A stretch of DNA of 64,000 bases from Deuterostichococcus epilithicus (Eukaryota; Chlorophyta; Trebouxiophyceae; Prasiolales; Stichococcaceae), in assembly GCA_033439295.1 (NCBI GenBank), contig JAVTLE010000003.1, forward strand, positions 310,001 through 374,000. Reading direction: 5' to 3'. The position numbers and the translations under genes were made by a program. How positions within the stretch are numbered: position 1 is the first letter of the stretch; each line of letters begins with the position of its first letter. Below are positions 14,790 through 57,356 of the stretch, in pieces. Below the pieces are notes generated by a model. That model was given only the letters and a program-made list of their open reading frames with translations. It was not told the origin of the DNA and searched no databases.

Positions 14790-15183
14790 CGTGAAACCCC
14801 AGCACGTGCTTGTTCAAGACAATGGGTGCAGTGGCTGTGCAGAGAGAGTCAGGAGGATCCGGATTTGCAACCACAACGAAAGACAATGAACAAATGATTT
14901 GTGTGTCGCGCATGTGACTGGGGCGCTGTTACTTCACATGCATACGGCCGCTCCCCCAGGAGCGCAGCAACGTCTTTCTTGGCTCACAAGGGGGCTGCGA
15001 AGGCAGCATAGCGAGGTACCCGCGTTATTCAGCTAAGCAGAGAAGGGTACTCGAGCTGGCGATCCGACAACGCAGGTGCACACACGTCCATCTACTGGCC
15101 GCGTAGTCCCCGTTGATACTGTGGCGTCGGCGGGGTTCAGACTTTGAGACAGTTTCTCAGTGCGCTGCGCCAACGAGACCGCC

Positions 15184-17040: not shown

Positions 17041-17098
17041 GCCGTCTTCAGCTGCAGCACCATTGGCTGACCATCACATGGTTTGTCGACCCTGCAGC

Positions 17099-21946: not shown

Positions 21947-24900
21947 ATGCGCGCGTCCAAGCATCTGCAGCGGTTGCTCAATGCATCATCTGGCAACTCA
22001 GCATGTACCAGCAGTGGTGCCGCATCGCATGCACCATGGAGTTGGGCATGCAGCCCTGAAGCCATGTTTAGGTGCAGCGCCGGTTGCGGCGCCCACGCGG
22101 CTGCTGTGTCGTCCAATGCGTACGACACAGTCCCAATTGCGCAGCAGGCGCGCGCGGGGCGGCATCACAGCCCGGAGAGCCACGTACCTGCACCGCGCAG
22201 CGCACCAGCGCTCCAGCGGCAAGTGCATCAACAGCGCCTCTTCACAGCCCTGGCCGAGCGCATCGCAGAGGACGAGACCGATCACCCGGAGCCGCCTGCG
22301 CGAGCGCCTGCCCAGCATGCCAGGCCAGTCAGGCAGCGGCCCAGGATCCCGGCGCTGCCATCAGTGGAGGAGGTCAGGGCACAACTATGTGGCGACAACA
22401 GCGGCGCTGGCTGCTCGTCAGCAGCGGCCGGGCCGCCGGCGGCAGATGCAGCAGCCGATGACGGCGACTCGCTGGACTGGCGGCGCTTAGTGGCGGCCAT
22501 CCGCCAGGGGCAGCTGACGGAGCCGGACGCCGGCGCCGTCCTGACCGACACCTTCCAGTGCGTTTTGTCTGAAACCACCTTTGGAGTCTTTCTGGAAGAT
22601 TGAGCTGCCCTCCTGAACATGTGCAAGTTGTAAGCTGCAAGTCGTAAGCTGATGGGCTGGCCACATCGCTGGCCATGAAGCAGCACCCCACGCTGCCATG
22701 TCCTGAACTGCCTGTTGACGTGTGACATCTGCGTGCCGCGCGCAGGCGGCGGCACACCTACTTGCGCATCTCGCTGACGGAGCGGTGCAACCTGCGATGC
22801 CTGTACTGCATGCCGGCGGAGGGTGTCGACCTGTCGCCGAGCGGCGAGCTGCTGACGTCGGAGGAGATCCTTCGCCTGGTGCGGGCCTCATGTCTGTTTG
22901 ACTTCGGACGGCTGTTGTGCAGCGCCGTCCCGGCCCAGACTGCGCCCCGACACTCGGCACACTCTCGCTAGCAGAACATCACAGCGGCATGGCGGCCGGA
23001 CTGAAAGTGCGCATGGGCAAACATGTGGCACAGGTGGGATAGAGGGGCCAGCAAGGTGCCGCTTTCGTGCCTCCCAGCAGCACTGCAGGTGGGCGTCGTC
23101 CATGACTTGATTTCAGCTGATCCTGCCGCAGGCGGCGCTGTTTGTGGACGCCGGCATCACCAAAATCCGGCTGACGGGCGGCGAGCCGACGCTGCGGCGC
23201 GACATCGTGGAGCTGACCGGCGCGCTGGCGGCGCTGCCGGGATGCGAGGCGGTCGGCATCACCACCAACGGCATCGCGCTGCAGCGCAAGCTGGCCGCCC
23301 TGAAGGGGAATGGTGCATGCCCCAGCTGGGCTGTCGCGTTGCTTGTCAAATCCGGCACCTTTGCTGTGGGCTTCTTTAGCGCGTGGACCCCCCGCTGCAC
23401 GGGTGGCCTCTTGAGGCTGAGCCGGACAGCTGCGTCGCAACTGGCCGGACGGGCGTTCGCTCGCTGGGCATCATACGACTTTCCCGCTGGCCGTCCGCGC
23501 TGGCTGCCAGCCGAATGTCATGTGCAGCCTGGCGCCTACTTGCAGTGACCCGATTGAGGCTGTCGTCAGCCATTCCCTCCTGCGGCCTGCAGTGCAGATG
23601 AAGGCAGCAGCATGCCCGCAACCTCCAGGCCAAAGTCAAACCCAGACCACGCGCGTGATGTTCTCGATGTCACAACTCATGTCAGCCTGGACGTGCTGTG
23701 GGCGGAGCGCCTCGAGGTCCACAGTCAGCTACGAGAAATATCAAACATCTGAATCCCTGGCTGCATGTCGTGCGCAGGCCTGGGCCTGCCGAACATCAGC
23801 TCGGACACGCTGCGGCCAGAGCGCTTCGAGGCATGTATTTGGGGTTTTTTTGGGCATGCATGCCCTCGAGCTGCGTCTTCCACAACTCGGCCGCGTCTGT
23901 GCGCAGGCCTGGGGCTGCTCAACATCAGCCTGGACACGCTGCGGCCGGAACGCTTTGAGGCGATGACGCGGCGCAAGGGCCTGGAGCGGGTGCTGTCCAC
24001 GCTCCACCAGGCGGTCGACCTGGGCTACGACCCCGTCAAGGTGGGGTGGCGCTCCATTCCGGAAACTCGAGCCGATTTCTGAGCTTCGGAACCGGAGGGC
24101 TCGGGCCTGGAGCGGGTTTCGTTGTAAATTTGACAGGCGGTCGACATGGGCTGCGACCCGCCAGAGGCTGCTGATATAAAACCAACCCAACAGACGATGG
24201 GGGCCTTCACACGGCATGCAGAGCCGTTGTGCAGCATGAACGGTGGGTGGGATTGTGCCGACGACACGTCGGTGTGTGGTTGGGGCTGTGCCTTGGAACT
24301 GCGCCTGGGGACCCGCGGCACCGAGGCGGGGAGTGGCGAGAAGCATGTGCACAGGGGTGCAGGTCGACGCAGCGGTGATGCGGGAGGGCACGACGACAAG
24401 CTGGGAGACCACCTTGACAGCCATGACAGCCTGACCCAAGCGAAGGGTTGGACATTCTTTTGATGGACATTTGGCTTTCATGAACCTCATCCTTTGTTTT
24501 GTCTTTGCGGTGTGCAGGTCAACGTGGTGGTCATGCGGGGCCAGAACGACGACGAGCTGCTGGACTTCGTGGAGCTCACGCGGCATGCGCCGCTCAACGT
24601 GCGCTTCATCGAGTACATGCCCTTCGACGGTAACGTGTGGGCGGAGCCCAAGATGGTGACCTACCGCCAGATGCTGGACGCCATCCGAGAGGCGTACCCG
24701 CAAGGCCTGCACCGCTGCCAGGTGGGCTTGCGATTCAGGGTTCAGGGTTGGGTTTGTGACCTGGATAACACATGCAGTTTTGGCTGCTGGTGTGACGGTC
24801 GTGGTTGCCCAAGCATGCTGCTCACAGCCGCACGCCAGTGCCTCGGTGCCCGGATTCGTGCCTGGATCGCACACTGGATCACTGTGCAACGGCGCCTCAG

Positions 24901-25673
24901 TTCAGGAAGGGTGTTCATATCCTCGCGCATGGCTGCAGAGGGTTGCTGCGCAGCTGCGTGTAGCACACGAGTCGACAGTGCGCTGCACGTCCCAAAACTG
25001 CATTGTCGGATGCTGTTGCACTGCTTGCCAGTGGAAAATTCCAGTTGAAGAACTCACTATATTCCTTGCCAAAACTGCCCGCAGGACGCTCGGGGGGAGG
25101 TTGCTAAGAACTTCAGGGTGCCGGGATTCCGGGGCACAGTATCGTTCGTGACCTCCATGACCAGCGCCTTCTGCGGCGACTGCAACCGCCTGCGCCTCAT
25201 GGCCGATGGCAACCTCAAGGTGGATCCCTGGATCCCCGCCAAGCTCAAGCCTGTTGCTCCTCGTCTTACGGCGATTGTGACCGCGGCCTTGGCGGGCCTC
25301 TTTGGGCTGCTGCGCCACAGCAGCCGGGGCCGCTGCCTCACGAACCTGGCTGCGGGGCGTGCCGCGTGCCCATGAGCGGACCATAAAGCAGCGGGGGCGT
25401 CGAGCCGCCCAGCCCCAGAGCGAACACAATCGCAAAGCCTCACTCTGCCTCAAAGGCCCTCCTGTGCTCTCGACTGCTTCTCAATCGCTTCCGCAGGTTT
25501 GCCTGTTTGGCGCCAACGAGGTAAGCCTGCGGGATGCGATGCGGGAGGGCGCGACGGACGATGAGCTGCGGGCCATCATCTCGGCGGCTGTCGACCGAAA
25601 GAAGGCGGCGCACGCCGGCATGTTCGAGATAGCGCGCACCAGGAACCGCTCCATGGTCAAGATCGGCGGCTGA
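21947..25673 (+). CDS. CNX2: Molybdenum cofactor biosynthesis protein CNX2 (GTP 3',8-cyclase, MoaA)
   Basis: Radical-SAM enzyme that turns GTP into 3',8-cyclo-7,8-dihydro-GTP, the first step of molybdenum cofactor synthesis; the plant enzyme is mitochondrial. Seven exons join in frame to about 524 residues: 21947-22557, 22746-22878, 23132-23312, 23907-24040, 24518-24721, 25085-25219, 25497-25673. ATG 21947 gives a mitochondrial-type presequence ([18 protein letters not shown]); about 200 residues precede the core, longer than in land plants. The N-terminal 4Fe-4S motif is intact in [13 protein letters not shown], followed by LTGGEPTLR and [14 protein letters not shown]. The C-terminal cluster is CxxC-x13-C in [19 protein letters not shown], and the protein ends in the essential Gly-Gly (MVKIGG). 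Two decayed copies of exon 4 lie in the intron before it, and a partial copy of its 3' end lies in the next intron. Confidence 0.93.
23684..24170 (+). repeat. Exon-4 echoes inside CNX2 introns
   Basis: The intact exon 4 (23907-24040) is preceded by two imperfect copies of its beginning, at about 23684-23716 and 23777-23831. It is followed by an imperfect copy of its 3' end at about 24100-24170 (CAGGCGGTCGAC recurs). The same two upstream copies occur in the older CNX2 fragment at 16881-17040, so they predate the 6.9-kb duplication. Stops or altered frames in the extra copies mean only one version can be used. Confidence 0.75.
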
Positions 25674-26196
25674 GGATGCAAGCAGGTGAGGCCGGAGGCG
25701 GCGGGGGCCTAAGTCGCTCTAGGCGCTCGGGTGTCTTTTGGCGACTCAGTCGACACTGCCACGTGCTGTGGTGGGGCCTGCTTCAACTGGGTGCCAGAAT
25801 CCCCGCTCTCCAGGTGCGTCAATTGACCGGCTCCCCGGCTGCATTCCGCAGGAGCTGCACTAGGTGGTGAGCCAGGACAGCCGCATTGAGACTTGCGCAA
25901 TTTTGATTGCTGGGTCGTGCGAGCGGCCGCAGGTGGTGTTTCAGTTTGCAGATGGCTTTGCTCTGTCTAAATATTGTGCATGTGTGGTTTCGTTTAATTG
26001 TCGCTGAGAACAACCTAAGATTCATCCAAGATGTTCAGGGCGTGTAAGCCTGATGATGCTACAGATGACAAACAAACGATTCTCATGCAGCCCGTCCATT
26101 CTGATCTATCTGGATGTCAACGCCTCCCGGTGCAACGCAGCAGGTTGATACACTGTGATACACCGCTAAAATACATATGTGGTACAACCGAAAATT
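25674..26196. other. Convergent intergenic region, CNX2 / VOC gene
   Basis: About 520 bp holding the 3' UTRs of two convergent genes. A TGTAA occurs on the plus strand near 26044. No gene, repeat or RNA signal was recognised. Confidence 0.5.
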
Positions 26197-27683
26197 TCAC
26201 TCAACCACGTAGCGTGCGAAGAGGTTCTCGGGCTTCGACATAGCCTTGAACTCCAGCGAATTCCCGCTGCGGCAGCAGGCACTAACAATTGGCAACTGGG
26301 AACATATGCACACCGCCGGCGTGTGCAGGTCACAGTCAAGCTGAGAAACGAGACACATGCAGTTTCGCTGAATGAAACCAAGCCTAGCCAGTTGAGACTC
26401 GCACCTCTTGTCCTGGAAGAACATAGTCCACTGCTCCCCTGGCTGCCCTGTGATTGTTGTTCAAGCACATACGTTGCACAAGCACGAGACGGATAGATGT
26501 TCGAACAGAGAAGTGATCTGCAGACCGGCAGCACAACATCAGGGTGAGGCTGGCATGGTCACACACTGACACTCCCGGAGCGGGGCAGGCTGTACATGCA
26601 ATGCCGGCAAGCAGTGAACACGCAGCCGCAGTTGTGAGCGTCCCTATGGTGAGGCACTTGCCTTGGAAGCGGACGTGCGGCTCGATGATGAAGCCGATGC
26701 CAGCGCTGCGCACCCGATCTGCCAGGTCGTGGAACTGCAGGAAGGGCCACGGCGGGTGCTTCAGCATCAGGGAAAGTCAGCAGCTGAAATGGATGGGTTT
26801 CGCGGCATACTGCCGGTTTCCAGCAGCCAACGAACCCGGCGATCCGAGCACTCAGGGTTCTGATGGCTCTGAGGGTTTGCAGGCAGCCCTCGAATGGGAC
26901 AGTGGTCCAGAACGTTCGCACACTCGTTTCGTGCTGTATGTGCAAGTGCATGAGAGGCGGCCCACCTGTGGCACCGACAGCACGAGGCCAAAGTGCGGCA
27001 CCGGCACCGCATCGCCGTCGACGGCGTTTGCGCTCTTTGCCGCCTCGTAACCCTTGACCTCGTGGCATACTATCTGCACACACGACGATCCAATTTATCA
27101 GTCTGGCAGGCCACCCAGCCTGCAGACTGTAGAAAGGGTCCCTGCTTGCACAACCGGCTAGTGCTGCAGTAACCAGGCGCCCCCGCCATGCAGTGTCGTC
27201 GTGCCAGAGATGGTGCCCACCTGGTGTCCGTACAAGCTGTAGTCCACCCACGTCTTTGCCGAGCGGCCCTCCATGCAGCCCAGCATCCTGTGGCATCATT
27301 GGCCATGACGTACAATGCACATTCTGCTTCATGCATTCAATGGTGGAAAAAGCATGCAATCATGGGTATGATTACCCTCCGTAGAAGTCCCTAGCCGCCT
27401 GGACGTTGTGCACGGGGAAGGCGAGGTGGAATGGCGGGATAGCGGTTGCAGCCTGCGGCGCCGCATTGGCGGCGTCGACTTGCGGCAAGCTGACGGCCGC
27501 ACTCCCAGCTACTGACCGCCTCAAAGTGAAGCTGCATGTGCCGCTGTGCGGCGAGGTCGTGCGAGGCTGCGGAGGTTGCCACGAGCCAATGGACCTGGCC
27601 AGGCGCTGACCTAAAAGGGCGCTGGACCTGTCAACAACAGCGTGTCGTGCCGCATTCATGCCGAGCCTCGTGACTGCGGTCAT
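26197..27683 (-). CDS. VOC/glyoxalase-fold dioxygenase-like protein
   Basis: Member of the vicinal-oxygen-chelate superfamily (glyoxalase, bleomycin-resistance, extradiol dioxygenase fold). Six exons join in frame to about 222 residues: 27683-27376, 27287-27221, 27073-26966, 26734-26662, 26447-26405, 26266-26197. After an Arg/Ser-rich organelle-targeting-like N terminus come [19 protein letters not shown] (first beta strand, putative metal His), [32 protein letters not shown] (second His), and [20 protein letters not shown] with the metal-binding Glu. The exon 4/5 join works only with a GC donor (GCAAGT at 26661-26656). It is probably a single-domain dimeric enzyme in plastid or mitochondrion; no substrate can be assigned. 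Start chosen at ATG 27683. Confidence 0.83.
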
Positions 27684-28505
27684 AGTGAACGGTGTTAGTA
27701 TGATTTTCTGAAAGTCGTAATGGATCGCCGATGCTGCGCGGTGCTGGCGGGATGGGATCGCAACTTCACCAGGATGCACTCTGTCAATCGCGGATGGGCC
27801 TCTGACGGTTTACCAAGCTTGACAATTCGGAACTCTGCCGAACTCGTGCTCTGTGTCGCGTTCATTGCTGAGAGCACAACCATGGCAAGGAGATGGTCGC
27901 CGCGTTCGAATCGCATTCAGAGGAAACCCTGGGGCGAACGCACTTGCTGGCAGCAACTCCCAGCATGGCCAATGGAAGGACCACCTCCGTCATTACGAAC
28001 TAAATATACACGCCACGAAACACAAGCTCACGAGGTTGCACGATGTGCGGATCAAACGCTTGCAGTTCAACAGACAAACAACTTTCACACCGGTCAGATG
28101 CGCCGTGTCTTCAGCGCAGCGACGGTCATGTGCCAGTTCTACGGCGGCAGCATGATACAGTCGTCTGTGCATTGTCAGGGCTCAGGCACGTCCGCGCAGC
28201 GCTTGCCCTGACTGTCGCGACTCGAGCGCGTCACCAGCCATGTGCTTCGTCATGATGCGCTTCCGCTGCAAGCCGGACTAACCTCTCGGACTCGCCCTGA
28301 CCATGCCGTCAGGTTGCAGCAGCAACATTCGTACGCCGAGAGGTTCCGCTCGGCCGCAGTGGCAACTGCTTCCCTGAACAGCTCTGCGTCGTCATTAGCT
28401 GCTTCAAGCGCGGCCACAGCCACGGCTGCTGCTGTCATGCCATTGCCGCCGCTGCGGCTGTCGCCACTGTGCCGCAACGGTCACCATGATGCCGCCGCAG
28501 GCGCG
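27684..28505. other. Intergenic region between VOC gene and coiled-coil gene
   Basis: About 820 bp with the promoter and 5' UTR of the VOC gene and the 3' UTR of the coiled-coil gene (both minus strand). No conserved motif or RNA gene was seen. Confidence 0.45.
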
Positions 28506-31500
28506 TCAGGACCTCGACTTGACGCTGCTGCTGGAGCGCAGCAGGCTGCGGTTGGGGTCACCGCCCAGGATCGCGTGCCTGCGGTGGCAGATCGCCGAAT
28601 GAACGCCATGCGCCACAGATACACTGCTGAGGACCAAGAGGGACCTTCCAATCCTCATGCTGCGGACGACCCAGACTCGAAAAGGGACAGTGGCACCAGC
28701 AGCAGCCCCCATCGGCAGCGCCCTGCTCTGATGGAAAATCGAGGAAAAAGCCCTCACATGCGGGACATCTTGGAGGAGACGGCTCGGTCCTTTGCCTCGC
28801 GGCGGTGCAGGTCCCGCTTCACGCGCGCGTAGCTCTCCGACAGCTCCGCCAGCGCCATCTTTTTGAGCACCAGCTCCGTCATGATGCCCTCGTTTTCCTC
28901 CTTCAGCTGCTCGACCTGTGTTGCAGATGCAGGGTCGAGGGCGTCAGAAGCACGCCAAGTGTCATCCTCGCCAGCACCAGCTCCGCATCATCATGCCCTC
29001 GTTCCCCATCCTTCAGCTGCTCCAGTTGCCAACGAGGTGAGTTTCTGGGGTCAGGCACACGGCAGACGATCTACACGCCATCTCCTTCAGCGGCAGCTCT
29101 GTCGTGATGCCCTCGGGTGATTGAGTCGCTCCGCATAGTTGTGTGCGCCGTCTGGTGCTAGTCGAGTTCATCGAAGCTTCATCTGATGCCGTGCCCTGTG
29201 GCAGCCAATCATGCAAGGGCGACGCAAGCCTGCCACGAGTGCAGCTGGTGAGCGCCTCATCAGGCATCCAGAAAGTCTGCACCACTCCCTTCGCTGTGGG
29301 CCACCAGAGCAGCAGTGCAGGCGCCCCTCGCTATTCGATTGATTCCCGTTGGAGGGCAGCCGCATCACCCGCCGCCATCCAGCAAGGCAGATCAGAGTCT
29401 CGCGCAGCCCCGGGGAGGCGGCAGAGGGCAAGGGGCATCAGGATGAAGTGTGCGCCGCTCGCCTCGGTCTCCAGCAGGCTGTTGAAGAAGGGGTGCCCCG
29501 CGCGGCGGGCGCTGCTGGGCGGCGTGCCGGGGGACTCCATGACTTCGCCGCCTTCGCCGCCGTCGCGGCGGGGGCTGTCCGCGAAGGCGCTGGCGCCCCC
29601 GTTGGTGACGTCCTTGGGCGCCGCCGCGGCGCGCCGCGCATTGGCGGACATGAGCTGCCGCTCGCACTCCATGAGCTGCTGCCCCGTCTCCTGCAACTTG
29701 GCCTCCACCATGAGCTTGGCGCTCTCCATCTGCCGCCTGCAGGGAACAACAAGCGGCTCTTTGAGAGATCAAAGTCCGATTGTACCCGCCTCCTGCAGCT
29801 TGGCCTCCACCATGAGCTTGGCGCTCTCCATCTGCCGCCTGCAAGTTGCACAGCAGCTCATCGGGGGTCCGCGCCTGGAGTCTGCACACCAGCTGCATGC
29901 TGGTTTTCCGAAAGCAGCTGGGCCTCCACCATGAGCTTGGCGCTCTCCATTTGCTGCCTGCAGGGAACAACAAGCGGCTCTGTGAAGGCCTGGACAAGTG
30001 CCAAGCTCTCTGCAGCCTGGACCCGGCTTTTCGAGATGTGTCATACGCCAACGTTTTGCGTCTGCGCACAGGGCAACGGCAGCAACCCTGCGTGCTGAGG
30101 GCGCGCAAGGATCAACAGCGCCTAGGGCAGGCGACGCGCAGCGGGCACGATGATTGAAGGTGCCCCTGCCCGCCTCGCCAGCCTGCGCACCCACCCTGTT
30201 CTCGTCCAGACCGCCTGCGCGCGCGCGGGGTGGCGCGCGCAGCAGCCGGGAGGGTCTCTACTTCCTCACATGTCTTATATGAGAGGCGCACCGCTTGGCC
30301 TCGCTCTCCGTGAGCGACTGCTGCAGCTCGTGCACCTTCTGCTGCGCATTGAACAGCTGCTCGTTCAGCTCCTCGAACTCCTGCTCCACCTCGACCTGCA
30401 CGCAGGTGCCCACAAGTGGTTGTTCCACCCTACATTACTGGCCCACCCCTGCTGGCGGCTCGCTCCTCGCCTCCCTACATGCTGCTCCACTGCCTGCGCA
30501 TGTGCGCGCACATCAGCCAGGTCTTCATTTCTGATGCGCGTCACATCGGCGGCAGTCGCATGCCCCTCCAGGTGCAGCGGCAGCACCTCATATTTCCAGG
30601 CTGAGATGCAAGCAGGCATAGGGTGGCAAAGAGACGGGCCTGGCCATCTGACTGGAGTCCACTGCCGTGGAGGGCGGTGTCTTGTGGTAGGCTGCTGGCA
30701 ATATTGCATCAAAAGCTGCGCTCCTAGCAAGCTGCACGGTGGGTCGGGCGAAGAAGCAAGTGCGAGAGCAGCTGATGACGGGCAGTGCCCACACTAGCAG
30801 CAACGGCGCGCCGCACGGGCGAGGGTAGCCCAAGCCACGTCCGGTGTGGCGTGTGACCACTGTTCCAATTCTTGCACAAAAGCTGGCGCAACCTTTTATA
30901 TGTGCGAGTGCGCAGGTGAAGTGTCAGAGCCGCAGCGTCCGCACCTCGAACTGCATGCAGCGCTGCTGCAAGAAGCTTAGCTCCTGCTCCTTGGCGGCAA
31001 ACGCCTCCTGCGAGAAGCGGCCGCTGATGCGCTTGGTGAGGCCGCCACCGCTGCCGCTGATGCGGGCCTGGTCGCCGGCCTTGGCAGCGGCTGCCGCCTC
31101 AGCGCCGCCCGCCGTCGGCGAGCCGCCGTCCGAGGACGCCTCCCCACCAGAGTCGTTCTGCAGCTCCTGTGATGTGTCCGACACACAGGCCGGCGTAAGG
31201 ATTGGCAAGCGGCATGCCCGGCACTGCTGACGTCGGACAGCTGCAGGAGGATGGCAACTACTTGGAGGATCCCCACGGACGACCTGCAGCATCAAGACGC
31301 AGCCCAACAAGCGCGGCTGGCAGGCGGCCGCACCTGCCACAGAGCGATGTTCTGGTCCTCGAGCTGGGAGATGCGTGCGAGCGCCTCCCGCAGCTGCTCT
31401 TGTGGATCTAGCTCCGCGCCGTTTGGGTCGTCCGCCCGCACCGGCCCCAGTCCTGTGCCGTCATCGCTGCCCTGGTACACCGAGCCCAGGTCCGACAGCT

Positions 31501-32458
31501 CGCCGTCGTCATCCTGCGGGCCGCCCGCCGCGCCGCCGTCCGCGAGGCCATTGGCGGCCTGCCACGCTGCCGCGGCATCGGGCGTCACGGCTGGCTCCGC
31601 CGGCGCCGTGTCGGCGTCTCGCTCTGCCGGAGCCGGCGACGCACCAGCGTCGATGCCTGCTGCTGCTTCGGCCGCATCTGGAGCCGCAAACGCGCCGCCA
31701 TTGCCCCGTCCACTAGCGGCGCCTGCAGCAGGCTGCGGCGGCGGCGCGCCATGTTCGGGACTGCCGGGCGGTGACGCTGCGGGGCTGGCCTCGGCGCCGG
31801 CCTGTTGCTCCATGCCAGGGCTGTCTGGGGGCCGTTCCGCTGTCGTCGAGCCAGCCTCGCTGCTCATGCCTGCAAGGCTGCGGCCGTTCCAGCCGCTGGC
31901 TGTGCCAATGACTGCAGCACCAGTCCACACCGCCGGCTGGCTCCCGAACACTGATGAAGCTTTGAAGCAGGAACCCTGCGCTCAGCGAGACAATAGCGCC
32001 AGCGTCACCGGTGCACAGACCTGGCACAGCGAGCCCTGTGGGAGGTTGTCGCTCAGCTGCAGCAGCACTTTCTGCGCCTGGTCCTGAAACTGCCGCGAAA
32101 GCGGCCAGGAGGACGCCCATCATGAGTATCGTGAAGCAAATGCCGTGTTGCGTGCCGCAAGTTCGGTTGAGTGTGGCATTTGGCAACACTGCCAACAGAT
32201 CAATAGGCATGCGTCGGTCAAACACGCCCTCGCGCGATCGGCAGAAGGTGCCTCCTGTGGAAGGGGATCACAGCAGCATGCAGCATAACAAGTGGCAAAC
32301 GCACGAGGACGTTGCCAAAGCGGACGACGTGCCATGGCTGAGGCGGACGTTGGCCCACCAAGACAACACGCACGCTCACCTACACGCGGTCGATGGCTCA
32401 CAGCATAGCTGCCGTCGCTAGTCGCTCGGTGCTCGTTGAAGATAGACCAGCCCTCGTA
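28506..32458 (-). CDS. Coiled-coil protein with acidic, low-complexity N-terminal part
   Basis: Exons in coding order, 3' part well supported: 31166-30945, 30395-30292, 29736-29463, 28915-28758, 28578-28506. They join in frame and give long heptad-rich helices (FEELNEQLFNAQQKVHELQQ, AKLMVEAKLQETGQQLMECE, VEQLKEENEGIMTELVLKK, LAELSESYARVKRDL), ending in a basic, Ser-rich tail (RSLLRSSSSVKSRS). Before these an exon ending at 31335 encodes an Ala/Glu/Asp/Pro-rich region and a helix LREALARISQLEDQNIALWQ. Two further exons (about 32100-32022, QFQDQAQKVLLQLSDNLP, and about 32458-32381, VYEGWSIFNEHRATSDGSY) probably belong to the 5' part. The start codon is not resolved. The 29463/28915 join uses a GC donor. 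It is probably a cytoskeletal, Golgi-tether or scaffold-type protein; no family is recognised with confidence. Echo copies of two exons lie in its introns. Confidence 0.7.
28858..29120 (-). repeat. Echo copies of the penultimate coiled-coil exon
   Basis: The start of the intact exon (VEQLKEENEGIMTELV, 28915 downwards) is preceded in coding direction by decayed copies at about 29040-28965 (EQLKDGE, then ELVLA) and 29120-29083 (EGITTELPLKEMA). Both lie in the upstream intron, at spacings of about 100-120 bp. Confidence 0.7.
29690..29965 (-). repeat. Three copies of the MESAKLMVEA exon start
   Basis: The nucleotides encoding QMESAKLMVEA occur three times: 29736 downwards (intact exon), about 29840-29795, and about 29960-29917. 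The first and third copies also share the neighbouring intron sequence (CAGGGAACAACAAGCGGCTC), so the repeat unit includes intron as well as exon. The two extra copies lie 5' of the used exon. Confidence 0.8.
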
Positions 32459-32719
32459 CACGCGGCAGCCTGCAAGCTGTACTACACGAGTTTACAGATT
32501 GCGCAGCTGGCTGAACGTGCGAATCAGGGGCTGATGATGAAGAGTCGCTCGCATTCAGTCCCGTCGACGACCCTGACGTGCTTCGCGTCAGCGTCCATGT
32601 GTCATGTACATTTCAGTTGCAATTGTCAAATATATTGCTTGAAGCCTCACATACTGATTCCGGTGATTGATTAGTTCGTGTTCGCGGGGCGCGACATTCT
32701 CATCAGAAGGTTGCACGAC
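32459..32719. promoter_or_regulatory. Divergent intergenic region, coiled-coil gene / F-box-LRR gene
   Basis: The two genes point away from each other here, so this 260-bp interval likely holds both promoters and the unresolved first exon of the coiled-coil gene. A minus-strand ATG near 32598 opens a short frame (MDADAKHVR) that could be that first exon, but no splice join in the right phase was found. Confidence 0.4.
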
Positions 32720-35700
32720 ATGCCTGACTTAAAAGTCGCTGATGTCGACCTGTCGCCACTGAACTGGGCTCGGCTGCCGCTGGACATCCTGCAGTCCGTG
32801 GGCTCGCTGCTGCACGAGAGCGACCAGGCGGCAGCAAGACTGACGTGCGGTGCCTGGCGTGTGGGCATCTCATATGGCGTGACGCGCCTGCGGCCGCGGA
32901 CCGTGCCAAATGCAGGTGGGCTCTTGCTGCGAACGCAGCTCCACCTGCAACGCCATCCGAGAGTCTCGCATTTGATGAAAACCGGCGTCATGTGCTACTT
33001 TGCAGCCATGCTGCCGGCTGAATTTCAAACGTGGCTGCCCACCACGACAAGCGCTCCGGACGCAAGACGATGAACATGGCGGCGGCTGCCCTGACATTCA
33101 AGAGTTTTGACCTAAACCAAACTGCCAGATGTTTTTCATGTAAACTTTCTGCCTAACAGGAGCCCTGTCCGCTGTGGGCGCCGCGCCCGCCGGCCAGCTG
33201 GGGGCATTCCCCAACCTCGAGGCGCTGGACCTGCGGCGCACCAGCATCTCGCCCTTCCAGCTGGCGCAGCTGCACCGCCTGCGCCCCGGCATCCGCTTGC
33301 TGCAGTTGACCTACCTTGAGCGCCTCGGCCGCCCCCACGAGTACTTCGAGCAACTGAAGGTGTGCTGTGTGGCCGAACCTTCGACAGCGGCAAGCAAAGC
33401 CCTGCACCTTGGATCAGTAGGAGAACCCGTTCTCTTGGCCAGGTGCGGGCGCTGCACAAAGTGCCTGCATACGCAGACGCGCACTGCGCCGCGTGTCCAA
33501 GGCAGTGCCAAGCCAGACCCTCAGATGGTCCTCAAGCTGGATGTTCTGTGCCATCCGACTCCGATTCTGAGCATCAGCACCGTGCTTCGAAATGCGCAGG
33601 CGCTGTACAATGGTCTGGACGAGCTGTCGGCCAGCCTGGAGCCTCGAGAGTCCTCAAGCTGAATTCTCTAAGCAGGCTCGACTTCGTGTTCGAGCACCCC
33701 TGCTGGTTTCCGAAATGCGCAGGCGCTGTACAAGGGGCTGGACGAGCTGTCGGCCAAGATGGACATCCAGCTGGAGCTGCATGTCAACGAGGCGCCCTTC
33801 ACGCGAAGCTTCATGCTGTCGGACCGCGAGCTCGCAGAGGTGGGTGCCTCGATTGTGCGCCTGTCCGGACGCAGAGGGGTGTTAGGTAGGAGGGTTTGTT
33901 GAGCGAGTTTGCCAGGGGACATGCCGCTTGCATACGCCCCCGCCCTCTTGCGCAATGGGCTGCCTGCTGTCACTCTGCTTGAGCGGTGAGGTAGGCCGCC
34001 ACCACAGCCTGCAGGTGCACACCACATTCAAATGCCTAGGGGCAATGTCATGTTGTCGTCCTTCTGCATCCATGAATTCTGCATCCATGAAAGACAGACA
34101 AGCTGTACTCACGTGCTTGCCACAGCACCTGCCGTGCCGCACCCTGACAACCATACAATGTGTGCCGCAGATCGTCACGGCGCCTGCTGCGCTGGCAATC
34201 ACCTCGCTGCACATCAGCCACCAGCTGAGCTACAACATCTCGGATGTCGGGCTGTCGGCGCTCACGCGGCTGGCCGACCTGCGCAGCCTCAACATGGTTA
34301 CCTACGGGGGCCACCTAGACAACAGCAGCTTCAAGTGAGTTTCGCACCTCCAACACTTTTTGGCAGTTGAGCAGGCTGTTGCCGCCCAGTTGGCCAGCGC
34401 TGATTATCACAAAGAGAGGCAACAGACCGAAAGGGCGCCCACATCTCATCCTGCTGCGGCGGGCGCGCTCACGCATGTCTGCCACGCAACTTGGTACGCA
34501 CATAAGTTGGATGTGACTTGTTGAGGTCGCTCTGATTGCACCCGCAACCTGCCTGTAGGGAATTCTCCGCGCTGCACAACCTACAGCACCTGCACGTCGG
34601 CATTGTGAAGCGTGTGACTGGCGACGGCTTTGCCGACGGCCTGGTGAGCCTATTCTATCAGATTGTAGATCTTAGATTTCAAAATTTAGACACGTGCTTT
34701 ACAAAGTCCGGCCGACTACATGAGTAGCTTGTACACAGTCAATTCTGGGAGCTTGACCGTGCGACTGACCCATATGCCAGGGCTGCGCATTGCAGAGCAA
34801 CTTCCAGGGTCCCTCAACCAGCTCGCCGGAGCCTCCTGTTGTGCCGACTGCCGACTGTTATGCTTCTAGCTGCCCATATCAACGCAAGCGCGCAGATACT
34901 CAGGCTGTTGCATCCGAGATTAATCCTCACGCAGGCAAATGTGACCATGGCCTCGGTCAGATCCAGCGATTGGGTTGCTGTGCTTGAAAGACCCATGGTT
35001 TGCATTTCGGCTGCCCTCCCTCACACAAGACATGATGGGCCTCAGGGACTGGAACCTGGTGGAGTGTTCCTCGCTGTGCAACCAACCCCGCTAGCCCAGC
35101 CCCGCCGGCCCAGCCCCTGGCTGACGACGTCGCAGTTGCAAATCTCAGCTGCTTTGCGGACCCAATCCCGAGGTTACCGCCCATTTCTGCGCGCACGCAA
35201 AGACGACGAGCCTGGTAGACCTGGCGCTGGTGGAACGATTCTCGCTGGACAACCAGTGGCTGGGCATTTCAGTGGCGGCTGTGTCACGGGCATAGATGTA
35301 TGCAGATCCGGTGTTGAGGTTGCCGTCCATTATCTTGCGTAGGCACCCATGACGGGGCTCGTGGACCTGACGCTGGTGGACTGCTCCTCGCTCTACAACC
35401 AGGGCCTGAGCAGACTTGTGGCGGCAATGCCAGGGCTGACGTCGCTGACGCTCATCAAAGTGCCATGGCTCACGGACGCGGCTGTGAAGCACCTGCAGCG
35501 GCTTTCAGCCCTGGCGACGTTGAGTCTGGCTGACAACGGCAACATCGGGTGAGCTCTCTTGGCAGTGGTCTGTCAGTAGCGTGGTGAGCATAGCGGGCAG
35601 GCTTGCTCTGGCAGGCCTGCACTCTGAGACTGGTGTGTGTCAGCGGCTGCGGTGCTTTCTTGGGTGCATGTTCGCATGGAATGTGAGGACGGTTTTCAAA

Positions 35701-36054
35701 CCTGGGTCCTACACTCTTATGCAGCTTTGCGAATGGGCTGGCAAAGCTGGAGACGCTGAGGACGCTGCGCCAGGTCGACGTCAAGCGCTTTGCGCACTTT
35801 GGACCGGAGGAAACGGAACTGTTGCTGAAGGTGAGCACCTTTCGCACATGTTGTGCTGTCAGCTCTGGCCGCAGGCAAATGAGGCATCAAGCACAGCAGG
35901 CACAAGTCTGCTGCAAAGGTATGATCGGGAGTGCGCGCTGTTGCAGGCGGAGGGCATAGAGCAGGTGAACGACCGCTGCAAGCTGGTGTCGAGACGCCCC
36001 TTGACATGCCCGAGTCGGCCACTGCACGAGGAGATGCGATATGCTATGATGTGA
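32720..36054 (+). CDS. F-box / leucine-rich-repeat protein (FBXL/AMN1 type)
   Basis: Eight exons join in frame to about 393 residues: 32720-32915, 33160-33359, 33723-33839, 34171-34334, 34559-34643, 35343-35548, 35725-35830, 35947-36054. Near residues 12-50 an F-box-like motif is visible (WARLPLDILQSVGSLL followed by RLTCGAWR), the adaptor surface for SKP1 in SCF ubiquitin ligases. The rest is leucine-rich repeats: FPNLEALDLRRTSISPFQL, DVGLSALTRLADLRSLNMV, LVDLTLVDCSSLYNQGLSRL, LTSLTLIKVPWLTDAAVKHL and LSALATLSLADNGNIG. The cysteine-containing pattern LTLVDCSSLYNQGL is typical of FBXL/AMN1 repeats. An extra exon near 34784-34830 (LRIAEQLPGSLNQL) may belong between exons 5 and 6. Two exons have echo copies upstream. 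Likely a substrate receptor; target unknown. Confidence 0.8.
33586..33770 (+). repeat. Exon-3 echo in F-box-LRR gene
   Basis: CGAAATGCGCAGGCGCTGTA followed by a near-identical stretch coding LDELSA occurs at about 33589-33640 and again at 33713-33764. The second copy is the used exon (KGLDELSAKMDIQ). The repeat unit of about 125 bp also includes the 3' end of the intron. Confidence 0.8.
35033..35405 (+). repeat. Exon-6 echoes in F-box-LRR gene
   Basis: The start of intact exon 6 (LVDLTLVDCSSLYNQG, from 35349) has two decayed relatives upstream, at about 35033-35093 and 35204-35258. The middle copy keeps SLVDLALVERFSLDNQ. Intron sequence before them (GAGGTTRCCGYCCAT-like) is also shared. All three copies share the CTGGTGGA core. 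Confidence 0.75.
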
Positions 36055-36843
36055 GGGTGCCCTCGTGATCTGGCCACCGGCTGCTCGAGTTTGTGGCAAC
36101 TCGGGGAGCCCAACATGGTATGCGGGCCAGGTTGCTAGTGTCGACGGCGGAACTGTTGCAATGCTGACGTTGGTGAGCGCGCTTCACCCTGAACTCTGTT
36201 TGCAAGCAAGCGGAGGTGCTGTTGCGCGTCAACGCTTTGCTGCGTGTTTAGGCTATCAGATGCCATATAATTTGCCACGGCAAAAAGTTGCCATTCCGGT
36301 TTTCTGTGCTGAAATAGCAAGGGTGCAGCAGCAAGCTGCGGAATGCTGTAGGAAAGTCAAGCCGCTGCAGTCGGCTTAATTTCGTTCACAGCATAACACC
36401 CCTGGCTCGCTGTAGGAGCGGTGAGGCAGCGAAGACGAACAAACCGAATTGCAGACCACTGGGGGGCACGACAAAGCCCGGGGCAATGGCGGTCTCGGGG
36501 CGGTCAGGCGGTAACGCGATGTGTGCTGCTGCCGGCATGAGCGAAGGCCCTGGTGAGCGTCACAACCGCAAATAATACCCACTAACACCTCAACCACCTT
36601 GTAAACAAGGCAGAAGGTGTACATGCCGCGTGGCCGACCCCGCTTGAGTGCATTCTGCCCGCTTTTGCTTTGGGGGTGCGCTCCATCGTTCCGAGGAGCC
36701 TAGCTTGTAGAGAGGCAGCTGCCTTGCACGTAGTGCCGCCGGCCGTGGAATAATCTGTTTGCAGCACATCCAGATGTTTGTCGGTCCTTGCACGCTCACA
36801 GTGCACGTCTTTACACGGCATGCACGTGGACTAGAAGCTGGAA
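36055..36843. other. Intergenic region upstream of tRNA cluster
   Basis: No protein motif, RNA gene or repeat recognised in these 790 bp. Presumably it contains the 3' UTR of the F-box-LRR gene. Confidence 0.45.
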
Positions 36844-36896
36844 GGGCTAACGATCTAGTAGTGAACTCGCTTTGGGTGCGAGAGGCCCCGTAACGC
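36844..36896 (+). pseudogene. tRNA-Pro(UGG) pseudogene
   Basis: The anticodon arm and flank (CTCGCTTTGGGTGCGAGAGG) are identical to the intact tRNA-Pro at 37087-37158, and the 5' flank is also alike (CACGTGGACTAGAAGCTGGA versus CACGTGGACAGGAAGTTGGA). The D arm is altered and the T arm and 3' acceptor strand are missing (CCCCGTAACGCTTC instead of a T stem). It cannot fold as a tRNA. Confidence 0.8.
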
Positions 36897-37086
36897 TTCT
36901 ACTAGGTGCCGCACCTCTCGGTCCACCCCCGGCTGGCTGCGCACGAGCCAGATGTCCACCGCAAGCTGCCAAGCCCGCCGCGCAACAAGGAGCTTGTGGC
37001 AGAAATCCAATACATCATTATAGGATTCGCAGGTGTGTCACCTCGTGACGTTTTCGCACAGCTTTCACGTGGACAGGAAGTTGGAA

Positions 37087-37158
37087 GGGCTAGTGGTCTA
37101 GTGGTATGATTCTCGCTTTGGGTGCGAGAGGCCCCGCGTTCAATTCGCGGCTAGCCCC
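37087..37158 (+). tRNA. tRNA-Pro (anticodon UGG), no intron
   Basis: 72 nt with all arms: acceptor GGGCTAG pairs with CTAGCCC, the D arm carries the A-box region GGTCTAGTGGTAT, the anticodon stem CTCGC/GCGAG encloses loop TTTGGGT (anticodon TGG), and the T stem CCGCG/CGCGG encloses TTCAATT. It marks the outer end of the left arm of the inverted repeat. Homology with the right arm reaches this tRNA and stops beyond it. Confidence 0.95.
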
Positions 37159-37352
37159 CGAATTTTTGGCCCGGAACAACACATTCTAGTGAATGTTTTG
37201 TACGGCGTGAGCCGCACGCAACGCCCCAGCCGTGCGTGTGGAATTTCTGTGGATTTCTTCCGCGCAGCAAGGGTCGGCGACAAATTAGATTGGTTTTATT
37301 GTATCATCTCCCTTGTTCAATGGTGACCTCATACAGTCAACATACTTCCTAC

Positions 37353-37875
37353 TAGGGTTGGCAGCCAACCGGTAACCGGGGTTGGTCCTAACCGGGTAAC
37401 CGGGGTTACCAACCGGTAATCGGGGCCGGAAATCCGGTTACCTCCCGGTTACCAGCCGTTCCCCATTCTAACTTATGTGGATTCTAGCTACCTCCAGGGG
37501 GTATGGCGGCGGCTCGGGGGAGTGGCGGAGGGAAATGGGCTTTCTGTGCCACTAAACAGCGGCAACACTTCCCGAAACAATTTTGTTCACCCCCCAAACG
37601 GTTACACACCACCAGCTGCACCTTGTTGTCCATCTGGGGGTCCATTACTGTCAGGTCCACGCCATTCGATGTCGAATTGCACGAAACTTTGGCATCATGC
37701 AGTTTTGTCTCAGAGGCTCGAAAACCAGACAGTAATGATCAGCGAGGTGAGACAAGTCCATTTCCGATGAGTTTGGGCAAAAAGGGCGAGGTAACCGGCA
37801 GAAACCGGTTAGTAACCGTGGTAACCGTAACCGGTAACCGTAACCGGTCCCAACATCCGGTTACTGCCAACCCTA
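37353..37875. mobile_element. hAT-like MITE (523 bp) with 8-bp target-site duplication
   Basis: The element begins TAGGGTTGGCAG and ends CTGCCAACCCTA, perfect 12-bp terminal inverted repeats of the hAT type. It is flanked by the direct repeat CTTCCTAC (37345-37352 and 37876-37883). The right arm of the inverted repeat carries one uninterrupted CTTCCTAC at the matching place (complement of 57357-57364), so the pre-insertion site is visible. Subterminal regions are built of many GGTAACCG-type motifs in both orientations, likely transposase-binding repeats. There is no transposase gene, so it is non-autonomous. Confidence 0.92.
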
Positions 37876-37898
37876 CTTCCTACTCTGGGCTCGTTTGA

Positions 37899-39296
37899 TT
37901 AGTCCAAGGCTGGGTAAGACGGAAATGCACCAAAGCTCCTTCTTTGTGGAAGCAGTTTGCTTTCGAAGTCCAGAATTCCATTTCCACGACAGGTATCCTT
38001 GGCCAGCAGGGATGTGGTCGTGGGTGCAGCCAGCAGATCGCTGCATGAGGCTCTACCGGCTGCGGCTGCAGCTGCAATACCACGCGTGTCAGCCAGCTCG
38101 TCGGCGCCGCCAAGCTGTACCAATTGCCGCAAGCGGGTTCTGGCCGCTGCAGATGCTGCGGATAGCCAGCAGCTTGGGCTGATCGAATGCCTGCATGCTG
38201 ATGCTGCTACACCTAGTCGCCGCACGGTGACCACGGCACACTGCGGGACGGTTGTGGTCAGCTGGCGGCTCTGCCTGGTGGCCGCCGTGCCACAGGTATT
38301 TCCGCACATGTCCTCAGCCTGAGAGTGGCGCACAAGGTGGTGGTGACTGCTGTGGTTCATGCCAAGATTCGAGGCCTGATTCATGCCACAACAACCTCGT
38401 GCGATAGCGCTGCACTCAGGAGTTGACGCCACAGATGCATGCAGGAATCCAGTCAGTGATCGCCCACCCACAACTTGCATTGTTCGGTAAAGCCCATCGC
38501 TGCTACGACTCGCCTCGGAAAAATCACGAAGCCCACCACCGGCAGCAGATGCGCCTGGATCTCTCCTGCTTCAGGCAGGGTTGATTGCTCGCGGCGGGTT
38601 GGCGCCGTCGACCTGAACTCCTGCGCCTTGAGCTCGGTCAGGTGCTGCAGCATCCAGCTCTGCTGCACCATTGCGGTTCTGCAGCTTCGACTTGTCCAGC
38701 AGTGTGCATAGCAATGTCAGTAGCTCGTACGCCTGCGAATATTCCACTGCATTGTGCGTCGCCCGAACCAACACAAAGACGAGAGTGGTGACCGCAGGGC
38801 ATGGCATCTGTGATGCCTGCGCACAATATAGATAGCCGATGACCCAAACTCTGAAGGATCCGCTTGGACAGTACAGACTCTGCAACACAAATCTGCAGAG
38901 TTGGTGCGATACGGCCAGATGACGCCACTGATCACAGGCCTTTGAGCGGCAGCAGTGGCATGGTGGGCAGGGTCGTGGGCACGCTGGCATGGCGTCCAAC
39001 AGCGGCAGCGACGGGGGTGTAGTGGCAATTGGGGTAGTTCGTGGCTGAATAGCGGCGTCAATGAAGCCATCAGCGACGGCTAGGCCGTGCAGGCTCAGCA
39101 TGGCACGCAACAAGAGCCCTGAAAGGTGGTGCGCTGCTGTCGGCGGGCAGGGCGGAGTGGCTGGCTGGGCTGCGACCTCAGCAGAGATGTCGGTGCTGCT
39201 GGCGGGTGGGCTGGGCAGCGGTGACATGGCTGAATGTTGCGAGCGGCGGCGGCGGCATGGTTGGCAGGGTGCGGAGCAGACCCTGACAGCCCTCAT
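37899..39296 (-). CDS. Hypothetical protein region, left-arm copy
   Basis: Two open stretches on the minus strand (39296-38571 and 38480-37899) correspond to right-arm plus-strand stretches 55947-56759 and 56717-57340. One hydrophobic/helical segment (TTLVFVLVRATHNAVEYSQ followed by YELLTLLCTLLDKSK) looks protein-like. The opposite strand is open over much of the same interval, and arm-to-arm substitutions change residues in both readings about equally, so coding strand is not proven. No known domain was recognised. Confidence 0.3.
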
Positions 39297-40906
39297 AGCT
39301 CACAGCAGCATTGGCGCAGGGGCTGCGGCAGAACAACCAGGTGTTGGTGAGTAAAGGTAACAGACTAACAGTAGCCAACTAGCAGCAGGTTCCCCAGTGC
39401 CTGCGCTGCATGATGGAGTTGCGCATACTTGTCCGGTAAGAACAACTACCCCGGCGCCAGCGCTGCAGCTGCGACGACAGCGGCGCGGGCAGCAACATCT
39501 GTCTGCAGCAGTGGTGACAGCGGCCGGTTCATATTTACCTGTTTGTTCCCCCCTCCACTTCCCCCCTCAGCCGCTGTCCTTCCTCAAGCCGCTGCCGCCG
39601 CCGGCAGCCCAGTTTGGTTCTCCTCTTGATCAAGCAGGCTCAGCGCCGTTGCCCCAGGCTCTGCGGAGTCGAATCAACCGCTCGGCGCCATTGAAGATAG
39701 TGCCAGTAGTCGACCATGAGCAACTGCAAAATGCGGGGTTTAACTGGTGGTAGTGCTTCGATCGGGTAGTTGATCGGCCATATGCAATGCGCAAAGGCAG
39801 CAGGGGCAGATGCTGCAGGCATTTGCCGAGAACTCGCGGTTCGCTGTGCTGCAGATGTTCACACAGCTCGAAAAGGTGAAACGTGAATGAGCACGAAGAG
39901 TCCAATACACGAGCTCTGTCGGTCGACAAACCGGCGGCTGCAGCCAGGAAGTGCCAGGTTCGCATCGACGGAGGGGTGTCATCCAGAGTCCGGCAGGTGC
40001 CTTGGAGGCGTGTGATGTTGCAAAGCTGGCATTGGCGTGCATGAGTGCCCCGCTGTCAAGTCCCAAGCCAGCCTCAGGCTGGCCACGTGTGGGGATGCCA
40101 GAATGCCTCGACTTGCTTGACCCGGCTGCAGGAGCTGTCATAACGAACCAGGCAGACTGAACTTGAGCTCTTGGATGCAGGTGATGAAGTTTGACCATGT
40201 CACTTTGCCCCGGCGGCGGGGGTTGTATGTGGGACGCCATGTTTTGGACGAGTGCATTGCCTTGTTGCTCGATGGCTGTGGGCCGGCATGTATGCCGTGC
40301 ATTCGATTGATGCCCAGCATCGGAAACGTGAGATACTTTGTCGTTCATGGCCGCAGGAGGTTCACTGCTGCAATTGAGTTGCTGCCATGTGTGACGACCC
40401 GCAGGACGAGGTCATGCAGGTGGGCATCCTTCCTGCTTGCCGCCTGATGCAGATCTGTGGGCCCAAAACTCGCTTGTCTTTCATCAGGCGCACTCGCACC
40501 TCTGCCTGGTCGCAGCTCGTTCGAGGCCACGCCATGCGGCGGCGGCGCGCTGACACAAAATATCATCGTATGCTGCCCCCAGCTTTTGTGCAAAAGCCCC
40601 AGGAACTAGGGCGTTGATATGTACGCACTGTGCAATTTGCAGGGTTTCGAGGCGGGGCAGGCCCAGTTGCCTGTGTCTGATTGAGCGTGAAGCCTGGGGT
40701 TGCCAGAGCGTTGACAAGGCTTCTCTGCGGCTGCGGGTCCCAAGTGCATGGTGGGGCCTCTGAATGCAAACCACAGATTCACTGGTAAACTCCATGATTC
40801 AGATGTTGGCAAGTGGCCTCCAGCCACCTCCGCATCGATTCGTTCCCACCCACCACTCCCCTGCATCTGGCCGCAGTTCCGGAAGGCCGGGCCTCGCGGG
40901 CCAGTG

Positions 40907-41510
40907 ATGCGGGACGGCCAGGACAAACCAGATAGCAGCGAGCCGGGCCCGGCGGCGGCAGCAGCGGCGGCGGCGGCAGCGGCGGCGACGGCAGCGGCGG
41001 CGGCGGCGGCAGACTCTGATGCGGCGCCGGCGGTACTCGCCGCCATTCTGCCAGTGGCGCTGGTCAAGGCTGCCGCCAAGGTGCTGCCTGCGCCGGCAAA
41101 GGCGGTCACCGTGGCGGCGGTTGCGGCAAACGCGGCATCCAAGGTGGCGGCTGCGGCAATGGCAGGCTACAAGGTGACGGCTGCGCAAGCCAAGGCGGTC
41201 GCCGGTGCGGCGGCTGCGCTTGGGAGGGCAGGCTCCAAAGCGGCGGCGGCGCCGACGAAGGCGGCCGCAGCCAAGGTGGCGGCTTGCGGCCAAGGCGGCC
41301 CCAGAGGTGCAGACTGCGCTCAGGAAGGCAGCTGCAAAGGCGACGGCAGCGGCGGCTGCGGCAGCGAGAACTTGTGTGCTGCCGGCGGTGCGTTCTGCCG
41401 GCAGTGCAACTTCGGACGCTGGCAACCCACTGGCGGCTGCTGGCCAGCAATGCGGCGACGGCAACGCATCGTCATCAGACGGCGTGCGGTCCAGTGGCGG
41501 CAAGGTGTGC
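40907..41510 (+). pseudogene. Ala/Lys-rich protein exon, left-arm copy with +1 frameshift
   Basis: Left-arm counterpart of the exon at 54336-53740. It opens at ATG 40907 (MRDGQDKPDSSEPGP) into a poly-Ala run and Ala/Lys/Val helices, but an extra T (GGCTTGCGG, near 41284, against GGCTGCGG in the right arm) shifts the frame, and the following Ala-rich stretch is lost. The rest of the exon is still recognisable in another frame up to the donor near 41502. Either this copy is dead or a sequencing error lies here. Confidence 0.6.
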
Positions 41511-42203
41511 TCAGCACATTGTATGCCTACTGCGCCTATTTGTGCCTCGCTGGTGCTTGCATGACTGGCATTTGGTCGTCGCCACATACCCCGTCTTCAA
41601 TGTGTACATTGAGGGTTTCGTGAGCACCTGTGCGCCCTCTGCAAATACTTGCAAACCCAGGAACTCTCTGAAATAGACCCCGACCTGTACCACGACCCGC
41701 ATTCACGTAGGCCGAGAAGGCCACCGACATCTCATCGCCACTGCTAGCCGCGGCGCAGGAGGCGGACTGTTCAGCGGTCCCAGTAGGAGGTCCCAGTAGG
41801 ATTGAGGCCGCCGGGCGCAGGCGGCGGCGGCAGCAAGTGGGCGTCAGCCAGCAGTGCCGCCGTACAACACGGCAAGAAGCAGAAGGTAAGCCCCTACTCG
41901 CCGGCTGCTGCTGAGGTGTGCGGCCTGTCAGCAGCAGCGTCTCTGGAGACGGTTGCGCCCGCAATGACAGCTGCGCCGCCCCAATTGCAGCCGCTGCCAC
42001 TACTGTGATCAGACGCAGAGCTGCCGCAGCACAACGGTGGCGGCAAGGTGCACACCCATCCCTGTCCGTCCGCTGTGCATTTATCATCTATTTGTCCTGC
42101 ATGGGTTTCAGTCAGGAGTGTCGCTGACATTCGCCCGGTACGAGAGTTCTCTGGAGGAGATTTCCAAAACGACCATCCAAACGCAACAGGAAATTAGACA
42201 TAG

Positions 42204-42637
42204 GACGACGTGAGTATGGCTTCACGATCTGATTTTGCAGGTGGAGACCAATGGTGCGGTGGACAGTGTGGCAGAGGCGGCGCCGGAGGAGGCGCCCGCT
42301 TATCAGCCTGGGGGGCGGCACACCTACCTGGGTGCGCTCCACGCTGGTCAGCCGGTCATTGCGCCGTATCATTCCACAGCTGCACGACTGCATCATGTGC
42401 CTGAAGTTTGGCTGACATAGGACGACGTGAGTATGGCTTCGCGATCTGATTCTGCAGGTGGAGACCAATGATGCGGTGGACAGTGTGGCAGAGGCGGCGC
42501 CGGAGGAGGCGCCCGCTTATCAGCCAGGGGGCGGCACACCTACCTGGGTGCGCTCCGCGCTGGTTAGCCGGTCATTGCGCCGTATCAGTCCACAGCTGCA
42601 CGACTGCATCATGTGCCTGAAGTTTGGCTGTGTTCAC
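42204..42637 (+). repeat. 217-bp direct tandem duplication containing an exon (left arm only)
   Basis: Unit 1 is 42204-42420 and unit 2 starts at 42421, both preceded by GACATAG and beginning GACGACGTGAGTATGGCTTC. Each contains the end of an intron and an exon start coding VETN(G/D)AVDSVAEAAPEEAP. The right arm has a single copy (near 53029-52815) that agrees with unit 2, including the codon for Asp. The duplication therefore arose in the left arm after the arms separated, or was lost or converted in the right arm. Confidence 0.9.
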
Positions 42638-57340: not shown

Positions 57341-57356
57341 ATCAAACGAGCCCAGA

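Follow-up and report, generated by a model that had tools for sequence, protein, structure and literature searches.

Exons are known to arise by tandem exon duplication (PMC2592719), and new introns can arise by Rogers-type AGGT tandem duplication, as described in PMC4974935. A single young tandem duplication across an intron-exon boundary has given the potato RdRp gene an extra intron (PMC4974935), the Exonize catalogue records exon duplications with intronic or inter-boundary matches (PMC12343006), and in mouse embryonic stem cells short tandem duplications result when breaks with protruding ends are repaired by end joining (PMC5730883). Here we describe exon echoes, partial and mostly decaying copies of exon edges, in the green alga Deuterostichococcus epilithicus. 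The window is a 64,000-nt stretch (C3:310001-374000) of a 46.8-Mb genome in 21 contigs; with 200 kb from contig C1 (the C1 sample) it makes up the 264 kb that were screened, 0.6% of one genome. The echoes are real and hold in both, with about 1 in 30 exon edges having a decaying partial self-copy in the adjoining intron. The best explanation, to which we give a probability of about 0.66, is recurrent short tandem duplication across one splice boundary.

The potato RdRp account describes a unit of the same composition, the 3' end of an intron with the 5' end of an exon, and an upstream exon copy that is partly intronic and inherits its splicing signals (PMC4974935). The present case differs in its many events of varied age, which include donor-side cases, and in that the upstream copy is apparently skipped and an existing intron apparently grows. 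Rogers-type duplication, as outlined in the same source, likewise alters introns with the protein unchanged, but the echoes lengthen an existing intron instead of turning exon sequence into a new GT-AG intron. Within-gene exon copies, degenerate intronic ones included, are common to our set and to the Exonize catalogue (PMC12343006), whereas the echoes are partial edges tied to one splice site. The end-joining duplications are similarly direct, local, small and independent of mobile elements (PMC5730883), although that mechanism was shown in mouse embryonic stem cells and here we infer it from anatomy. Among titles and the beginnings of abstracts, with subscription journals thinly covered, we found no description of exon-edge echoes in algae, nor of the echo density, edge rule, acceptor excess and fading at the splice site reported below.

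Gene models were predicted by an unsupervised hidden Markov model (HMM) of coding potential and splice sites, trained on the same 264 kb, which gave 41 genes and 757 exons with donors resembling CAG/GTGCGC and acceptors TGCAG/G. These gene counts are rough, as the gene finder merges and splits genes (one model has 79 exons and CDC45 falls in two pieces), and the exon boundaries called used are its predictions throughout. Exon heads of 70 nt were aligned with the 320 bp upstream and tails with the 320 bp downstream, at a score of at least 80; exons shorter than 30 nt were left out of the counts and simple repeats (period 45 or less) were masked. Upstream matches were found for 35 of 564 heads where 0.6 were expected, and downstream matches for 19 of 558 tails where 0.7 were expected, with no inverted match in either class; by position these 54 anchored matches collapse to 50 pairs.

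Matches on the wrong side were fewer (8 of 558 and 6 of 564), and for 11 of the 14 a predicted exon contains most of the second copy. Echoes mainly outside predicted exons comprise 25 upstream heads and 10 downstream tails against 1 downstream head and 2 upstream tails, a division of 35:3 between right and wrong sides (p = 7e-8) that holds in all three gene-finder settings. With 35 of 38 partial copies in the intron adjoining the copied edge, their placement is that expected of duplication across that edge. The location rule is therefore the intron adjoining the copied edge, with an acceptor excess (25 heads to 10 tails, p = 0.017; 24:11, p = 0.041, in one of the three settings), rather than the plain rule of the original prediction that copies lie 5' of the exon; that rule we reject, since tails are copied downstream, and what survives of the proposed 5' bias is the excess of heads. 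Head copies lie upstream and tail copies downstream, so the used site is probably the one still joined to the rest of the exon, and not always the 3'-most copy as had been suggested.

The offset between copies has a median of 126 bp (interquartile range 104-144), and introns with echoes are longer than others, with a median of 314 nt against 206 (p 0.014-0.033 over the three settings), in agreement with the earlier proposal of a route for intron growth. In the window, an annotation-free scan at a score of 110 found 15 local pairs in direct and 2 in inverted orientation; in the C1 sample it found 34 direct and 10 inverted ones. Five block-wise dinucleotide resamplings of each gave no direct pair. 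Offsets of 80-160 bp account for 20 of the 34 direct pairs in the C1 sample, with the scan reaching 3000 bp, and head-to-tail repeats of comparable size occur there at, for example, 29356, 47697, 101299 and 155163. Chance or low-complexity matching might be favoured by GC-rich sequence with some simple repeats, but its probability is negligible: simple repeats were masked, and resampled sequence, random genome segments and inverted same-intron controls gave about 0-1 matches at score 80. Inverted exon-edge copies numbered at most 2 per class at score 70 and 0 at score 80.

The original prediction rested on thirteen copies at seven exons, and re-alignment recovered all 13. Each score was equalled by 0-5 of 1000 random window segments, a conservative control because the draws could overlap the tested locus. 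The copies, with the CNX2 exon to which the first three belong, are as follows.

23907-24040, + strand: CNX2 (MoaA-type) exon 4, the predicted used exon of the gene model
23682-23717, + strand: CNX2 exon 4 head echo 1, 29/36 identical, shortened relative to the copy at 16876-16936
23778-23832, + strand: CNX2 exon 4 head echo 2, 47/55 identical, offset 129
24103-24159, + strand: CNX2 exon 4 tail echo, downstream, 42/57 identical
33588-33640, + strand: head echo of F-box/LRR exon 3 (33723-33839), offset 123, 44/49 identical over 33592-33640
35205-35291, + strand: head echo of F-box/LRR exon 6 (35343-35548), 64/86 identical, offset 146
35031-35084, + strand: second head echo of F-box/LRR exon 6, 42/54 identical, offset 317
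29785-29843, - strand: head echo of the coiled-coil exon ending at 29736, 57/59 identical, offset 102
29914-29985, - strand: second head echo of the coiled-coil exon ending at 29736, 93% identical over 72 nt, of which 28 are intronic, offset 221; 45/49 identical over 29914-29962
28953-29022, - strand: head echo of the coiled-coil exon ending near 28915, 56/66 identical
29076-29115, - strand: second head echo of the coiled-coil exon near 28915, 33/40 identical
6701-6756, + strand: head echo of the egt1 exon at 6819-6998, 44/56 identical, offset 109
7476-7518, + strand: weaker head echo of the egt1 exon at 7702-7908, 33/41 identical, gapped
7563-7621, + strand: weaker head echo of the egt1 exon at 7702-7908, 44/48 identical, gapped

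The two echoes of the egt1 exon at 7702 are the weakest of the thirteen, with scores of 87 and 91. The spacing, given earlier as about 90-220 bp, measures about 102-243 bp for the listed copies, with one at 317, and although 12 of the 13 do lie 5' of their exon, this placement fails as a general rule. Genome-wide, a query of 151 bases at CNX2 exon 4 hit nothing but its own position and its echo. The CNX2 exon at 24518-24721 also has a weak head echo, absent from the earlier list, at 24363-24403; it is 76% identical over 41 nt and scores 80.

Profile searches place echo-bearing proteins in recognized Pfam families (CDC45, ThiF, ABC transporter, and Radical_SAM and Mob_synth_C for CNX2, in the last case with the echo-less protein). 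The echo-bearing egt1 product matches histidine methyltransferase and FGE-like domains, and the LRR-model matches of the F-box/LRR protein all fall below the curated cut-offs. Among the 120 listed CNX2 homologs of 7979, the top match carries the label Artemisia annua, and the best named ones after it come from green algae, including Coccomyxa, Micractinium, Trebouxia and Chlorella, at about 65-77% identity, as would fit a trebouxiophyte-like alga. The CDC45 gene (C1:626110-633667, L005-L006) has several echoed exon edges.

In the explanation that we prefer, recurrent tandem duplications of about 50-220 bp would strike an intron-dense genome, perhaps by end joining of staggered breaks, and a duplication across one splice boundary would copy the end of the intron and one edge of the exon together. 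The normal protein would be retained if splicing picks the site joined to the rest of the exon, presumably the downstream acceptor where a head is duplicated and the upstream donor where a tail is. The partial copy would then turn intronic, the intron would gain one unit, and the copy would drift neutrally; similarity would be longest-lived in the exon-derived half because only one of the two copies there is free to change.

The state of the copies is consistent with such drift. Mismatches are spread near-evenly over the three codon positions both in intronic head echoes (66/381, 64/376 and 77/371) and in intronic tail echoes (27/146, 17/144 and 30/145), and indels occur in 13 of 25 intronic heads and 2 of 10 intronic tails, so the decay predicted for upstream and partial copies is borne out. 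In CNX2 exon 4 echo 2, third codon positions hold 5 of the 8 mismatches. The AG dinucleotide is intact in 14 of the 25 intronic heads and GT in 5 of the 10 tails.

These same observations bear on whether the copies are instead real repeated or alternative exons kept in transcripts, which we think improbable. The echo lies at least half inside a predicted exon in 15 of the 50 pairs (for example 23778-23834 in the window and 133672-133723 in the C1 sample), and use as exons is possible for some of them; protein repeats could be tolerated in some pairs (e.g. coiled-coil gene, 97180-97388 of the C1 sample), and there is a mild third-position excess when all 35 head pairs are counted (76/529, 77/526 and 98/517). 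Even codon-position mismatches and frequent indels in the intronic echoes speak against it, as does the predicted outcome of using the echo acceptor, which would bring in a stop in 20 and a frameshift in 15 of the 25 intronic head echoes, with one or the other in 24 and a clean extension of the protein in just 1. The ISLD-type motif of CNX2 exon 4 is present in 91 of the 120 listed homologs (7979 found) and doubled in none of the 120, and of the two predicted pieces of CDC45, the first covers Pfam profile positions 3-250 and the second, whose match begins at residue 36, after the 5' copy, covers positions 251-622. Judged by reading frame and mismatch pattern, most intronic echoes look unlike functional exons.

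Some of the echoes can be dated from larger rearrangements in the window, which comprise the following.

10084-17032, no strand assigned: unit 1 of a 6.8-kb tandem segmental duplication (egt1 3' end, NmrA-like gene, CNX2 5' half)
17041-23810: unit 2 of the 6.8-kb tandem segmental duplication
16876-17039, + strand: the two exon-4 echoes of truncated CNX2, of which echo 1 matches exon 4 at 50/61 and echo 2 at 39/47 positions
42197-42630, no strand assigned: 217-bp tandem duplication of a predicted exon with flanking intron, copies about 96% identical, single-copy in the other arm of an inverted repeat at 52821-53037

The 6.8-kb duplication reaches from the 3' end of egt1 as far as the echo region of CNX2 exon 4; it cut CNX2 and left a truncated CNX2 beside a truncated egt1, plus two NmrA-like genes. 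Its units have diverged by 27.8% at noncoding and 20% at third positions. Since the truncated CNX2 keeps both exon-4 echoes, the echoes are older than the 6.8-kb duplication; echo 1 at the intact locus lacks 21 nt still present in the truncated copy, and the echoes in each unit have decayed independently. A more recent event is indicated by the 217-bp duplication, for which the single copy in the other inverted-repeat arm (52821-53037) appears to be the empty site, although a loss from that arm may account for it instead. This duplication is probably a recent event of the proposed kind that carries a whole predicted exon, not one edge. The earlier finding was drawn to end at 42637, which coincides with this separate duplication.

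The inverted repeat itself is large (37123-45244 and 50207-57578), with arms about 96.5% identical (3.5% diverged). A tRNA-Pro gene (37087-37159) lies at one outer end, with a partial match (57647-57610) at the other, and a decayed direct copy of the tRNA-Pro region at 36805-36890, 243 bp upstream, is an echo outside protein-coding exons. One arm alone carries a 531-bp insertion (37343-37873), flanked by the 11-bp repeat TACTTCCTACT and with ends GGGTTGGCAG and CTGCCAACCC, which looks like a small DNA transposon. In contig C1 (652961-653558, L008) there are about 3.9 copies of a 153-bp unit with internal inverted-repeat matches and no predicted exon.

A duplication of whole units predicts kinship between the intronic halves of each pair. 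We compared these halves in 45 pairs for neutral decay, leaving out two rows of the 217-bp duplication and spacers outside the length range, and with the same exclusions in 43 pairs for flank scores and spacers. In-register homology reaches z > 2 in 9 of the 45 pairs, where about 1 is expected by our estimate, with a mean z of 0.63 (standard error 0.23). In the F-box/LRR exon 3 echo the intronic half is homologous in register over the whole spacer (z 5.0), which identifies a true tandem duplication, and the intronic half of the F-box/LRR exon 6 echo at 35205-35291 is also homologous (z 2.9). Three-copy series, read by hand, include some with near-equal offsets (122/124, 131/129), as repeated tandem units would give, and others with unequal ones (102/119, 125/149).

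Several observations weigh against simple tandem duplication as the whole account. Mean head-pair identity beyond the splice site is 0.69 at nt 1-5, 0.39-0.41 at nt 6-15 and 0.21-0.34 further on, and mean similarity on the intron side is at background within about 15 nt, even in most of the pairs that are 92-97% identical. The claim that copies include intron sequence thus applies at length to a subset only. A neutral simulation with echo divergence set generously, at its upper 95% bound, left 14 of the 45 intronic halves more diverged than simulated where about 2 are expected at 5%, so that neutral tandem decay as a full account is rejected in these 14 pairs and not rejected in 31. Among 21 pairs whose echoes are at least 85% identical, the intronic halves score a median of 50, near the 41 of shuffled sequence, against 127 for 55-nt noncoding windows (n = 83) of the 6.8-kb duplication, which are 28% diverged. 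The spacer between CNX2 echoes 1 and 2 aligns across the 6.8-kb units with a score of 131, but with the neighbouring spacers of its own series it scores 30, 50 and 30, and the spacers of the series score 30, 50, 30 and 30 with one another; this mutual unlikeness speaks against simple tandem units there. Just 13 of 57 local duplicate rows lack a predicted exon in either copy, and 9 of the 13 are one array and a tRNA pair; so few purely intronic duplicates argue against an exon-blind process, which should leave more. Finally, the size peak is less sharp in the window, where 6 of the 15 direct pairs are at 80-160 bp and 6 more at 200-250 bp.

What stands of the short tandem duplications first proposed for these genes is therefore a local, direct duplication process, with 14 of 45 intronic halves too diverged for ordinary tandem decay. 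That divergence leaves conversion from exon to echo, copying bounded by the splice edge, or new intron sequence that is remodelled faster. The main rival, possible though unlikely, is that only the exon edge and splice site are copied into the adjoining intron, or that the echo is refreshed from the exon by gene conversion; the loss of similarity within about 15 nt, the 14 over-diverged flanks, the unalignable CNX2 spacers and the scarcity of purely intronic duplicates all favour this, as does a divergence between CNX2 echo and exon 4 about equal to that of one lineage of the 6.8-kb duplication. The in-register flanks of 9 of the 45 pairs and the series with near-equal periods run counter to it. 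Conversion in particular should, between such close direct repeats, often delete the echo, and at CNX2 echo 2, where the truncated copy has no local exon 4 available as a donor, the differences from exon 4 (8 of 42 sites in the truncated copy, 5 of 42 at the intact locus) appear to give no clear conversion signal, the number of sites being small. The stronger form, in which the adjoining intron repeatedly receives, about 120 bp in, copies of exon edges and splice sites without flanking intron, or has them renewed by exon-to-echo conversion, with acceptors affected more often than donors, we regard as doubtful; if it were true, such splice-edge-bounded copying or refreshing would be a genome-wide engine of intron growth.

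The layout, often a direct repeat around a spacer of 45-80 nt, is also what introner-like small mobile elements inserted beside exons with long target-site duplications might leave. This we consider very improbable. Two spacers searched against the whole genome matched only themselves, in a search that scores the best candidates only, and spacers of at least 30 nt compared with the 264 kb (43 of them also with their own surroundings) found no match beyond their own local family and its segmental duplicate. We know of no transposon that a target duplication of about 60 nt would fit. Spacers as inversions or reversals of their flanks were looked for as well, and no excess was found.

Intron growth is usually explained by transposons and small insertions. 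The exon echoes are a trap for gene annotation, several having been called exons by the HMM gene finder here, but each also has a clock of its own, and its use in splicing is open to test, so that the tolerance of duplicated splice sites becomes measurable. The 35 right-side intronic echoes in 264 kb would correspond to several thousand genome-wide if the sample is representative, and such a countable trail would tie intron lengthening to boundary-spanning duplications.

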